Assembly: GCA_017547525.1 (NCBI GenBank)
Contig: JAFYPL010000012.1
Location: 1 to 34,786, forward strand
From: Oscillospiraceae bacterium
GTDB taxonomy: Bacteria > Bacillota > Clostridia > Oscillospirales > Ruminococcaceae
Direction: 5' to 3'
Length of the DNA stretch: 34,786 bases
Below, piece after piece: positions 24,133 to 29,022 of the stretch. The position numbers and the translations under genes were made by a program. Each line of letters opens with the position of its first letter. The stretch's first letter is position 1. The notes under the pieces were generated by a model that saw only the letters and a program-made list of their open reading frames with translations, searched no databases and was not told where the DNA came from.

Positions 24133-24384
24133 ATGAAGGGATTACATCACAGTGTAATAGAAATAAAAGACACCGAAAATGATAAAATCGACAGAATTCT
24201 GGTTTTTCTGAAGCCGGGACACAGCAAAATCGATTTGGCCGCTGCCCGCAGTGATGCCCACACCATTTTACAAAGAGTAAAAGTACACAGAAAACTGCCA
24301 CCACAACTGACTGACAAGCTTTTTATCAGCAGTATATTGCTATTTGGCGCTGTGCTTATCATACGGGCCATATTACTGGGGTAA
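24133..24384 (+). CDS. Small protein of unknown function with a C-terminal membrane anchor
   Basis: An 83-residue protein I do not recognize. Residues 1-60 are soluble, opening MKGLHHSVIEIKDTENDKI and then DRILVFLKPG, with a basic stretch (QRVKVHRKLPPQ) before the end; residues ~62-82 form one hydrophobic helix (LFISSILLFGAVLIIRAILLG), so it looks tail-anchored in the membrane with the body in the cytoplasm. A clear CGGAGGATAAT precedes the ATG, which supports it as a real gene. It is the first rightward gene beyond the DnaA-box-like cluster and 115 bases before rlmB. No catalytic motif is visible. Confidence 0.75.
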   Translation: MKGLHHSVIEIKDTENDKIDRILVFLKPGHSKIDLAAARSDAHTILQRVKVHRKLPPQLTDKLFISSILLFGAVLIIRAILLG

Positions 24385-24499: not shown

Positions 24500-25261
24500 A
24501 TGCAGCAGAAAAACGAAGAAATCATCTACGGTAAAAACGCGGTTACTGAACTGCTGAAAAGCAAAGAAGGCGTTGATACTGTTTTTATAAGCGATAGTCT
24601 GAACCCTAGCGTAGCATCATACTACATGGCACTGGCAAAAGAATGCGGCGCAGTAGTAAAAAAAGTACACCCTACAAAACTGAAAAACCTGTGTGGCAGT
24701 GATAACCATCAGGGTGTGGCAGCATTTGCCAGCACAGTGGAATATGTTTCCATTGCTGAGATCCTGCGAAAAGCAGAAGAAAAAGGCGAAGCACCTTTCA
24801 TTATCCTGTGTGACGGTATTGAAGACCCACACAACCTGGGTGCTATCATGAGAAGCGCATACCTGCTGGGTGCACATGGCATCATCATCCCTAAACGCGG
24901 TGGTGTATCCGTAACAAGCATCGTGCACAAAACAAGTGCTGGTGCGTCCATGCATCTGCCTGTAGCTAAAGTTGCAAATATTGCACAGGCAGTAAGAAAT
25001 CTGAAAGAAAACAATATTTTTGTATACTGTGCAGATATGAAAGCACAGCCACTGTACAAGCAGAACCTGACCGGCCCTATTGCACTTGTAGTAGGCAGCG
25101 AAGGTAAAGGTGTACAGCCACTGGTAAAAAGCCTATGTGATGACGTGGTATGCATTCCTATGCATAACGCCGGCACAAACGTAGACTCTTACAATGCGTC
25201 TGTAGCTGCAGGTATCATCATGTACGAAATCAACCGTCAGAGAGATCTCAACGCAAAATAA
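24500..25261 (+). CDS. rlmB: 23S rRNA (guanosine-2'-O)-methyltransferase, TrmH/SpoU family
   Basis: A 253-residue SpoU methyltransferase of RlmB type, which methylates the ribose of a guanosine in the 23S rRNA peptidyl-transferase region with S-adenosylmethionine. The N-terminal substrate-binding domain starts IIYGKNAVTELL. The three knot motifs are DGIEDPHNLGAIMRSA (motif 1, catalytic arginine included), VVGSEGKG (motif 2), and DSYNASVAAGI (motif 3, with Y where many have L). ATG at 24500 follows AAGGAG. Only 35 bases separate its stop from the start of the next gene, so they form an operon. RlmB versus a TrmH tRNA enzyme is decided by the N-terminal domain; fairly sure. Confidence 0.9.
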   Translation: MQQKNEEIIYGKNAVTELLKSKEGVDTVFISDSLNPSVASYYMALAKECGAVVKKVHPTKLKNLCGSDNHQGVAAFASTVEYVSIAEILRKAEEKGEAPFIILCDGIEDPHNLGAIMRSAYLLGAHGIIIPKRGGVSVTSIVHKTSAGASMHLPVAKVANIAQAVRNLKENNIFVYCADMKAQPLYKQNLTGPIALVVGSEGKGVQPLVKSLCDDVVCIPMHNAGTNVDSYNASVAAGIIMYEINRQRDLNAK

Positions 25262-25296
25262 TCTCATTTTAATTTATGGTAAAAGGAGGGGCACTG

Positions 25297-28137
25297 GTGG
25301 CACAGTCAGATATCGATAAAATACTGGAAGATATCCGAAAAAGAAAAGAACAGTCACAAGGCAGACCTGCACCACAGGAAACTGAAGTGGTAACCAAATC
25401 TGAAGAAGTTATCCTGCCGGAAAAAGAAACTGTAACGCCACAGCCAGAAATAAAACAGGACACTATTTCTGAAAGTGGCCGTCAGGCACTGTCCGCTTTT
25501 ATGAACAATACTCTGCAGGAAGAAACTCTACAGGAAGAAATTCTGGATACAACAGCTGAAAATACAGACTATGTAAGCAAAAAAAGCGAAGATTACATCG
25601 ATGAAAACTTCGTAAAGTTTTTTACACAGTCCGTCATCGTTACAAAATCTCCTGAAGAAACCAGCCAGTTACAGGTAAAACGCAAAAAAGGTGGATTTTT
25701 CAAAAGAAAATACATCACAGACAGTTTGTCCCTGAATATGGAAAGCCTGGAAGAAAAAGAAGAAAATAACGAAGAAAAAGGCGTAAAATTCAGAAAGAAA
25801 AACAAAAAACAGGCTGCCGAAAGTATGCCTATAGTAAAAACCGCCGGCGATTCATGGCTGGAACGCAATACTGCTGATACAGAAACACCACATGATCTCG
25901 GCGAAGTACGGCCTGAGCCTGAAACACAGCCTGCTGTATCTGTAGAACAGCCTGTACAGACTGAAGAAGCACCTGTAAAAGTGTACAAGCCTAAAGAAAC
26001 CAGACAGAGTCTGAACACTATTCTGGGCGATGACAAAGATGCTGACAGTCTGGTAAGCAAAATTCTGCGGCAGAGAAAACAGGCTGAAGCACAGGTTACT
26101 CCGGCTGAAGAAACACTGCCTGCCGATAATGAAGATGCTGTAAAAGAACCTACCGTGGAAATAGTGAAAGAAGACCCTGTTCCACAGCCAGTACCGGTAT
26201 CACCGGAAGAAGACAGCATCATCAGCAGCATTTATACATCAATTATAGAAAAACAGGCTGAAGAAGAATTACTGGCTGAACAGATGACAGGATACATCCC
26301 TGAAACAGGCGAAGAAGAACCTGTAATGGAAGAAACTGTACCAGCGGAAGTAACTGAAGAAGGAACCGAAGAAGAGGAAGTATTTGAAAAATACATCAGC
26401 AAAAGTGAGTTTCTGGATGGTCCTGATGGCGAAAGCGAAGATATACAGAGCGAACTTATATCTTTCAGACAGACTCTGAACATGCGAATCCGGCTGGGTT
26501 TTGTATGCGGGGCAATACTTACTTACTTTAATATGGGCACAGTAAACGGCTGGCCTATGCCACGGTTTATCATGCCTGCTGCACAGCCACTGATGTACAC
26601 AATAGCCTGTGCAGTGATTTACGCCATAGTGTTTGTAGGTTTCCTGCCTACCATTATTTCCGGCTTCATGTCACTGAAAGAATCCCCTGCATCAGACAGC
26701 TTTATCAGTCTGGGTGCAGTTATGGCGATGCTGCAGCTGGTGATGATGATTTTCACCAGCGGTACAACAGACCTGACAGAAACAACCATTTTTGCGGCCT
26801 TTGTTTCTATTGCCATGGGTTTCAATGCCATGGGTAAAAAAATATCCACAACAACTATCATTAAAAACCTTACACTGGCAAATGCCCCTAGCGGTATCAA
26901 TGCCGGTTATATAGTAACAGACACAGATGCTGTAAAACGACTGGCACGCACACTGGATGAAAAAATTCCTAAAGTGCTTGTATCCAGAAAAGCAGGTGCT
27001 ATCACTAACTTTGTGAAAGCCGGTTTCTCCATTCACAAAAGTGACTATACTGCACGCAAAGTAGCCGCCATAAGCTACGTGGTTACTGCAGTGTGTTTTG
27101 TAATGGGCCTGGTACTGTCCAAAAGTTTTATTACAGCTGTATTCTGTGCAACAGGCGCTGCTGCTATGCAGATACCACTGTCCCACACACTGGTAAACAG
27201 TGTACCTAGCGCACTGATGCAAAAAACACTGGAAAAAGTAGGCGCACTGGTAAATGGCTGGCAGGGTATCCACCAGCTGTCCAACACCACACACGTAAAC
27301 TTTGACGCAAAGCACCTGTTCCCTCGCGGCACAGTAATACTGCACGGTATCAAAACTTTCGAAAAAGAACGAATCGACCTGGCCATCCTTTATGCTGCCA
27401 GCGTTCTTATAAAAGAGTGTGATGTATTACGTCCTGTTTTCATGGAAGTAATTGATGGTAAAACTGATATTCTTCCTGAAGTGAACAGCTGTGAATACAT
27501 TGAACTGCAGGGTTATGTTTCCTGGATTGAAAATAGCCGTGTAATCATCGGTAACCGCACACTGATGGAAAAATACGATGTGGCCATGCCACCTGTAAGT
27601 ATGGAATCCAACTTCATAAGTCAGGGCAGAAAACCTGTTTATCTGGCTGTAGGCGGTAAACTTTTCGGTATGTTTGTATTCAGCTACCGCGCTGACGATA
27701 TAGTAAAAGTAAACCTGGAACGCCTGATGGAAAAAGGTGTAAGCATTATCCTTTCTTCCAACGACTTCAACATAGATCCTGACCTGATCGAAAAAGTGTA
27801 TGGTATTCCAAGAGACTATGTAAGCGTACTTAATCAGAAAGAAACTGCATTGCTTTCACAGTTTACAGAATACAGTGAAGAAAGTGAATGCTGCGTGGCT
27901 CATCTGGACAGCCTGTCCAGTCTGGTAGCAGGTTTCTGCGGTGCTGAAAGCGCCAGACGTGCAGAAGATGTATGCAGTATTATCCAGACTGTCAGCGTAA
28001 TTATAGGCGCTGTGCTGGCTGTGATGTTCACATACGCACAGACTATAATGCATTTACCTCTGGCAAGCATGATGCTGCTGGGCTTTGGCTTTATGGGTCT
28101 GGCTATGCTTACAGCTGTTGCAAAAAATTACGATTAA
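25297..28137 (+). CDS. P-type ATPase-like membrane protein with lost catalytic motifs and a long acidic N-terminal region
   Basis: A 946-residue protein. Residues 1-~385 are a charged, low-complexity Glu/Pro/Lys/Gln-rich tail with two basic patches, no cysteines and no heavy-metal domain. From ~400 the membrane order of a P1B-type metal ATPase follows: four helices (~400-505), two more (~590-640), a soluble region, and two final helices (~899-941). A conserved-looking stretch aligns with the ATPase core (PxALMQKTLEKxGALVNG, then FDAKHLFPRG). But CPC is IPL (626-628), DKTGT is D670-AKHL, TGDN is SSND (820-823), and TGES and GDGxND are absent. ATP-driven pumping is thus doubtful; a receptor or scaffold is possible. 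The GTG at 25297 is chosen over ATG 25276 because AAGGAGG lies seven bases before it. In operon with rlmB. Confidence 0.8.
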   Translation: MAQSDIDKILEDIRKRKEQSQGRPAPQETEVVTKSEEVILPEKETVTPQPEIKQDTISESGRQALSAFMNNTLQEETLQEEILDTTAENTDYVSKKSEDYIDENFVKFFTQSVIVTKSPEETSQLQVKRKKGGFFKRKYITDSLSLNMESLEEKEENNEEKGVKFRKKNKKQAAESMPIVKTAGDSWLERNTADTETPHDLGEVRPEPETQPAVSVEQPVQTEEAPVKVYKPKETRQSLNTILGDDKDADSLVSKILRQRKQAEAQVTPAEETLPADNEDAVKEPTVEIVKEDPVPQPVPVSPEEDSIISSIYTSIIEKQAEEELLAEQMTGYIPETGEEEPVMEETVPAEVTEEGTEEEEVFEKYISKSEFLDGPDGESEDIQSELISFRQTLNMRIRLGFVCGAILTYFNMGTVNGWPMPRFIMPAAQPLMYTIACAVIYAIVFVGFLPTIISGFMSLKESPASDSFISLGAVMAMLQLVMMIFTSGTTDLTETTIFAAFVSIAMGFNAMGKKISTTTIIKNLTLANAPSGINAGYIVTDTDAVKRLARTLDEKIPKVLVSRKAGAITNFVKAGFSIHKSDYTARKVAAISYVVTAVCFVMGLVLSKSFITAVFCATGAAAMQIPLSHTLVNSVPSALMQKTLEKVGALVNGWQGIHQLSNTTHVNFDAKHLFPRGTVILHGIKTFEKERIDLAILYAASVLIKECDVLRPVFMEVIDGKTDILPEVNSCEYIELQGYVSWIENSRVIIGNRTLMEKYDVAMPPVSMESNFISQGRKPVYLAVGGKLFGMFVFSYRADDIVKVNLERLMEKGVSIILSSNDFNIDPDLIEKVYGIPRDYVSVLNQKETALLSQFTEYSEESECCVAHLDSLSSLVAGFCGAESARRAEDVCSIIQTVSVIIGAVLAVMFTYAQTIMHLPLASMMLLGFGFMGLAMLTAVAKNYD

Positions 28138-28251: not shown

Positions 28252-29022
28252 ATGAAAATACTTTTTATAGGTGATGTAGTTGGTTCAAACGGCATGAATC
28301 TGCTGCGCAGAGGTCTGCCTGAACTGAAAAAACAGTATAAGCCAGATGTATGTATAGTAAATGGTGAAAACTCCAACGAAAACGGCAAAGGTTTAACCAA
28401 AAATGATGCTCAGGAAATTTTTGCCTGCGGCGCTGACGTAATCACCGGCGGCAATCACTCCATGAGAAAAGCTAATATCAGCTTTTATGAAGAAAATGAA
28501 TACATCCTCTGCCCTGCCAACCTGCTTTATGGCGAAACAGAGTATGGTGTATGCCATGTAGATTTAGGCAGAGAGAGTCTGTATGTAATCAATCTGCTGG
28601 GTGTGGCATTTATAGAAAACCACCGCAACCCATTTTTTGAACTGGATAAAATCCTGAAAACTGTGGACTGTAAAAACATCATCGTAGATTTTCATGCGGA
28701 ATCAAGCGCTGAAAAATATGCATTTGCTCATTATGCTGATGGCAAGGTTTCTGCTGTAATCGGCACACATACCCATGTTCAGACAAACGATGACCATATT
28801 CTGCCGGGTGGCACAGGCTACATTACAGATGCCGGTGCTGTATGTGCGCTGGACTCTGTACTGGGTGTGCAAAAAGAGCTGGCAATTGAAAAGCAGAAAT
28901 ACCTGAAACCGGTACAGTTCAAAGTGGCCGATGGTCCTGGTTATATAAACGGTGTTTATCTGGAAACAGACAAACAAGGCAAAACTGTAAAAATGGAAAA
29001 AATTCACATAATGTTCAATTAG
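28252..29022 (+). CDS. ymdB: YmdB-family metallophosphoesterase (2',3'-cyclic nucleotide phosphodiesterase)
   Basis: A 256-residue enzyme of the YmdB/TIGR00282 family, calcineurin-like phosphodiesterases acting on cyclic nucleotides and, in Bacillus subtilis, controlling biofilm versus motility states. The binuclear metal residues can all be read: D8 (FIGDVVG), E39 and N40 (NGENSN), N68 and H69 (GGNHSM), H148 (VDFHAES), H173 and H175 (GTHTHVQT). The length is normal. ATG at 28252 follows AGAGGT; a sigma-A promoter lies directly upstream. In B. subtilis the order is rny-ymdB-spoVS; here spoVS follows ymdB as expected but no rny precedes it. Confidence 0.94.
   Translation: MKILFIGDVVGSNGMNLLRRGLPELKKQYKPDVCIVNGENSNENGKGLTKNDAQEIFACGADVITGGNHSMRKANISFYEENEYILCPANLLYGETEYGVCHVDLGRESLYVINLLGVAFIENHRNPFFELDKILKTVDCKNIIVDFHAESSAEKYAFAHYADGKVSAVIGTHTHVQTNDDHILPGGTGYITDAGAVCALDSVLGVQKELAIEKQKYLKPVQFKVADGPGYINGVYLETDKQGKTVKMEKIHIMFN

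Follow-up and report, generated by a model that had tools for sequence, protein, structure and literature searches.

P-type ATPases are among the best understood of membrane enzymes, and the locus considered here raises the question of what role a pump fold can have when pumping is impossible. The window, as we call the whole stretch of 34,786 nucleotides of Oscillospiraceae DNA that was analysed, contains on its forward strand a gene (25297..28137) for an apparent pseudo-P-type ATPase. The initial annotation had described an open frame of 946 residues, and this is confirmed from the GTG at 25297, which is preceded by the sequence AAAGGAGG; an alternative in-frame ATG at 25276 would give a protein of 953 amino acids. 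A relative with 91% identity comes from an Oscillospiraceae bacterium of roe deer rectum.

The protein consists of an acidic arm, residues 1-385 (25297..26451, delimited by composition and by dN/dS; D+E 23.4%, K+R 11.9%, pI 4.39), and a membrane core, residues 386-946. The 385 acidic residues had been described as a tail; they are present, but at the N-terminus, in front of the core. Near the start of the arm lies a linear motif, SDIDKILEDIRKRK (residues 4-17; 25303..25356), matched by profile A3 with E 1.6e-5, the window protein itself being one of the rows of that profile. The core, with all features on the same forward strand, begins with a membrane block (26452..26880, ends approximate) that the profile alignment equates with MA, MB, M1 and M2 of the P1B ATPases; its helix count is given by homology, because in hydropathy no part of it but residues 436-454 and residues 469-487 rises above the threshold. 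A shortened A-domain remnant follows, recognised by its aligned length and by the loss of TGES (26881..27048), and then a block corresponding by profile alignment and motif counts to M3-M4 (27049..27198), with IPL (residues 626-628; 27172-27180) replacing CPC. The segment FDAKHLFPRG (residues 669-678, including D670; 27301..27330) occupies the position of the phosphorylation loop, as judged from column counts in the members, and is followed by an N- and P-domain-like region (27331..27900) marked by the conserved columns G739, G752 and D823, with SSND at residues 820-823. Two C-terminal helices (27961..28134; hydropathy peaks at residues 892-910 and 920-938) would be M5-M6 by position and lie outside the profile alignment. 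IPL, FDAKHLFPRG and SSND are all where they had been reported, and DKTGT, TGES and GDGxND are found nowhere in the window protein.

By profile comparison, the core is related to the heavy-metal (P1B) P-type ATPases far beyond what chance would give. An hhalign comparison of the family profile with one made from 11 intact pumps (profile A4) gave a probability of 99.9 and an E of 6.9e-34 over 461 columns; it spans core positions 17-484, with the A-domain as a large gap, and sets FDAKHLFPRG on the DKTGT segment, while the C-terminal part beyond position 484 found no alignment in this comparison. The best solved relative in a search of PDB profiles with the 29-member profile A1 was 3rfu (E 1.3e-16), the CopA of Legionella. 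These two results back the descent from P1B pumps that had been proposed from motif order; the line-up had been said to hold from the sixth helix onward, but it begins well before that. Used as a single sequence, the window protein gives NCBIfam matches to CopA (E 1.1e-9) and to a heavy-metal ATPase model (E 2.7e-7), both far under the models' curated cut-offs. The profile search originally suggested as a check thus gives matches to P1B profiles, but not the predicted ones to Hydrolase and E1-E2_ATPase, as no Pfam model recognises the window protein, nor did a Pfam scan up to E 10 match an HMA domain in it. Across 29 family members Pfam gave Hydrolase in seven (best E 0.0017) and E1-E2_ATPase in one (E 0.0063), all weak matches.

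The motif losses are not peculiar to the window. Of 136 collected rows (those of the earlier loci below 80 bits being excluded from the member set), 113 remained once duplicates had been taken out. These members come from 113 different genomes, spread over 22 families of the order, and we compared them with 18 intact canonical pumps as controls. By sequence, the residues on which the P-type transport cycle depends are missing from all 113. DKTGT and GDGxND each occur in 0/113 members versus 18/18 controls, and TGES at the aligned place in 0/113 versus 17/18, so that the loss first seen in one protein is borne out and extended to the family; homologues with an intact DKTGT at the same place, named earlier as the sign of a merely decaying copy, number none among the 113. 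Looser searches of the last 600 residues find TGE[SA] away from its place in two members, TG[DE]N in one, DKT in six and D.TG in 13. The His of the S.HP motif of the N-domain is at its aligned place in no member (HP[LIVF] occurs anywhere in the last 600 residues in nine), and at the CPC site of M4 the first Cys is kept in three, the second in one, and CP in two. The A-domain stretch comprises 66 model positions, versus 128-132 residues in the ten of the 18 canonical pumps in which it could be measured.

The phosphorylation aspartate is less strictly kept than was first supposed. D670, reported as kept, is present in 16/16 members of the window's genus, but in only 52/113 overall; Asp stands at this column or one residue later in 93 members (later only in 41) and at neither place in 20, and a Lys directly after the column is found in none of the 113. 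D670 as a strictly retained active site is accordingly rejected. Other parts of the head are conserved: on the aligned columns, the pocket glycines and the aspartate of TGD have remained without the phosphoryl-transfer residues (G739 in 111/113, G752 in 113/113, D823 in 111/113), and F675 and P676 (100/113 each) and Y797 (98/113) are newly conserved. A metal sensor, one of the roles initially put forward, does not fit a protein with no CPC and neither a GMxCxxC stretch nor a Pfam HMA match at its N-terminus, and was rejected.

The family is present throughout the window's order, Oscillospirales, and nearly always in single copy. Profile A5, built from 51 members, finds the family at E <= 1e-55 in 291 of the order's 297 genomes; G538 has two matches and every other matching genome a single one. 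A narrower first profile had found 257 of the 297; of the 20 misses listed, the rlmB region was inspected in 16; in 15 of these a member follows rlmB, and in the other the contig breaks off there, and true absence from 40 genomes was rejected in favour of a limit to that profile's sensitivity. When 291 genomes of the whole class were searched with A5, the 12 belonging to the window's order scored 357-693 bits over nearly the full profile, and none of the 279 from other orders exceeded 134.4 bits; the matches listed in those orders cover only about profile positions 203-511, as ordinary pumps do.

The members form one clade under purifying selection, with catalysis lost throughout. When 42 of the 113 members were placed in a tree with the 18 intact pumps, the family made up one side of a 100/100 branch, many of the branches being long. 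In nine same-genus pairs dN/dS is 0.027-0.131 for the core and 0.15-0.27 for the arm, and rlmB gives 0.021 and 0.078 in two pairs for comparison, all of these ratios being rough, since dS approaches or exceeds 1 in several cases. The initial annotation had held the gene to be maintained rather than decaying and had looked to purifying selection among homologues for confirmation; the core values, the 291 genomes and the single clade agree with it on both counts.

The acidic arm, the faster-evolving part, has a recurrent element of its own. The motif [STDNE][VIL][DE][DEK][IL][IL] is found within the first 70 residues in 51 of the 101 members with a closed 5' end (the 12 with an open 5' end being left out of the count) and in 0.35% of shuffled N-termini. 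It is present in 34 of 40 members from the window's own family, 6/7 in family f24 and 4/10 in f13, and in none of those from f21 (0/8), f17 (0/6) and f10 (0/4). Because the f10 proteins are only about 550 amino acids long, with no arm, and because the motif is not recognised in many families, recruitment by the arm cannot be what the family as a whole is kept for.

The bare motif is not specific, being found in unrelated proteins as well. A DNA pattern for the presumed docking motif gave 23 matches in 11 of 12 genomes, versus one for the reversed control, and these fall in seven pseudo-pumps, one ABC-2 permease, one sortase and 14 other proteins or frames. Among 41 distinct sortase-like frames, three carry the motif in their first 70 residues (L204, L205 and L206, of which two share a genus); all three have long N-terminal arms, and for the L204 protein PF04203 was confirmed by scan (as L132). 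The ABC-2 permease, in G408 (L126; PF01061, E 6e-17), begins with a like motif, and the form [ST][VI]D(D/E)I[IL] starts the three sortase-like proteins and the permease nearly as it does the pseudo-pump. From these similarities, thin as the evidence is, a docking site shared by pseudo-pump, sortases and permease is pointed to. A membrane-like protein with no Pfam match (L118) ends, rather than begins, with a similar motif.

Because the parts needed for pumping are missing and yet the gene is kept in nearly every species of the order examined, this rlmB-adjacent pseudo-pump probably has a job other than pumping. The explanation we favour, and consider fairly probable, is that of an order-wide family of pseudo-P-type ATPases, derived from a P1B-like pump and now serving as a membrane-anchored scaffold or sensor. 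The ancestral P1B-like pump would have lost its phosphorylation, dephosphorylation and metal-binding residues no later than the base of the order; the A-domain would have shrunk, and a variable acidic arm would have come to stand in front of the core in most lineages. The N/P-like cytoplasmic head may now bind a partner, or a ligand that it does not turn over, and the arm may recruit a cytosolic protein to the membrane by way of a predicted [SD][VI]D(D/K)IL helix. A receptor or scaffold role of this kind is what we infer from homology, loss of catalysis, the gap in distribution between orders, the single clade, selection and adjacency to rlmB, and further from the new F675, P676 and Y797, the retained G739, G752 and D823, the enrichment of the motif and its occurrence in sortases and the ABC-2 permease. 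Against it can be set the Asp that 93/113 members have in the phosphorylation column or beside it, for which some role is possible, and the fact that the P-type fold beyond the profile alignment rests on sequence, with distant members only 13-20% identical to the window protein; linkage to rlmB, too, is no proof of a functional tie.

That linkage is nevertheless a constant feature of the locus. The rlmB gene, for 23S rRNA (guanosine-2251-2'-O)-methyltransferase (24500..25261, forward strand; NCBIfam TIGR00186, E 1.6e-67), ends 35 bases upstream of the GTG, and the neighbourhood noted in the window holds for the order: in 40/40 loci rlmB is found upstream and in the same orientation, and in 39 it is the immediate neighbour. 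The intervals in these 39, taken from where the rlmB match stops to the start predicted for the member, run from -101 to 134 bases. In the one exception (L094) about 2.7 kb, including masked bases, separate the two. Such constancy shows that the two genes share a transcription neighbourhood; it may also reflect a tie to translation or ribosome maturation. Two other genes lie close by in the window. An 83-amino-acid open reading frame upstream of rlmB (24133-24381, forward strand) falls in a cluster of small proteins whose C-terminal stretch is hydrophobic. Such proteins are encoded no more than seven genes away in 9 of the 40 neighbourhoods, in seven cases immediately before rlmB, and a member of the cluster gave no NCBIfam match. 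A YmdB/TIGR00282-type phosphoesterase gene (28252-29022, forward strand) follows the pseudo-pump gene here and in L089 (cluster 58), and is not recurrent in the other neighbourhoods clustered.

The alternative that survives best, though we are doubtful about it, is that the protein is functionally coupled to RlmB and to translation; it might, for instance, hold ribosomes or late 50S assembly at the membrane. Besides the adjacency itself, 10 of the 40 neighbourhoods (the window counted, L093 not) have an EF-G-like gene (NF009381) as the following gene in the same orientation, but it is missing at that position in the other 30. Six of the 297 genomes are without a family member; five of these give no good rlmB match either, with hits of just 27-34% identity or no hit, and the sixth is the one whose contig stops near rlmB, while four relatives searched beside the rlmB-less genomes have rlmB at 38-49% identity. 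This joint absence is suggestive only, the genomes being drafts in which one assembly gap could remove both neighbours together, and no ribosome-binding feature was identified in the protein. A broader version of the favoured explanation takes in the translation link: a metal pump would have become a membrane receptor or scaffold encoded in fixed position beside rlmB, its former ATP-binding head sensing a ligand and its docking motif organising a membrane assembly tied to translation or to the cell envelope. We put this forward very tentatively.

The protein might also still be a transporter or channel, driven in some other way or not driven at all; its membrane half would conduct or flip a substrate, and its soluble half would serve only for regulation. 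The membrane blocks do align with P1B, and the M4 proline, Pro627, is kept in 91/113 members; but the CPC cysteines are gone, and of the helix columns just two, G456 and P627, neither of them polar, reach 80% conservation among the members. We regard continued transport as unlikely. Still harder to credit is the idea that it assists an active P-type pump of its own cell, as a regulatory subunit or a partner: an intact P1B pump is indeed also seen in ten genomes of the order (loci L256-L261 and L270-L273), but the family gene is tied to rlmB, and clustering of the neighbourhoods brought out no recurrent pump gene.

Intact pumps do occur beside rlmB elsewhere in the class. In another order (16 genomes, 14 with rlmB), an intact P1B ATPase gene lies directly after rlmB, on the same strand, in 5/14 (G077, G111, G165, G187 and G138). 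These loci (L304, L305, L306, L310 and L313) have a copper-type P1B ATPase with an HMA-like start in the slot of the pseudo-pump; DKTGT, CP[CHG] and an N-terminal GMxCxxC stretch are present in all five. TGD and GDGxND are there too in the three whose sequence could be followed to its end; the remaining two loci break off before that point. In 47 genomes of other orders no P-type open reading frame was seen downstream of rlmB, a few of the stretches ending early. One of the 47 (G114, locus L280) has a P-type-like open reading frame (135.5 bits with the canonical profile) that ends directly upstream of rlmB.

Synteny suggests that an intact pump behind rlmB may have been the original arrangement. 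The trees are against this: a union of the family with the rlmB-linked pumps was rejected (p-AU 0.024, long branches being involved), and the tree of rlmB, a single gene that resolves the orders weakly, does not place that order beside the window's. Descent from an rlmB-linked intact pump is accordingly not supported. Because a union with six other canonical pumps (C_L261, L267, L268 and L270-L272), which are shorter and presumably of Zn/Cd type, was not rejected (p-AU 0.12), the exact parent within P1B is not fixed. A decaying pump gene left open by chance, for which one could cite the lost motifs, the intact pumps after rlmB in the other order and a single in-frame TGA in the otherwise open frame of one member (L027 / L052, G058), can be dismissed, because the pseudo-form is order-wide, one clade across 22 families, and its core is under purifying selection.

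A literature search, over titles and the openings of abstracts and with few subscription papers among them, turned up nothing on this pseudo-pump family. A free-standing bacterial family without catalytic residues, near-universal in its order, tied to rlmB and unrecognised by Pfam would represent a new job for the fold, and the family is a candidate for a core function of abundant gut bacteria.

Three known systems invite comparison. The rlmB-linked intact pumps of the other order share with the window family their position, immediately after rlmB and in its orientation, and the P1B fold, but they have the DKTGT, CPC and GMxCxxC that the window family does not, and the tree does not join the two. 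With P1B CopA, as represented by 3rfu, the family shares the order of the membrane segments up to M4, the M4 proline, the line-up of the N- and P-domains, the second G of GxG, the G of GN and the Asp of TGD; it differs in having no DKTGT, TGES, GDGxND or CPC, no HP at the aligned place, an A-domain loop of about half the length and no HMA domain that we could find, and in the acidic arm set in front. Finally, apicomplexan guanylyl cyclases carry a catalytically dead, P4-like P-type domain, and such eukaryotic domains resemble the window protein in keeping a P-type architecture, with catalysis lost, for a use other than pumping; they are P4-like and fused to a cyclase, however, whereas the window protein is free-standing, bacterial and P1B-like.
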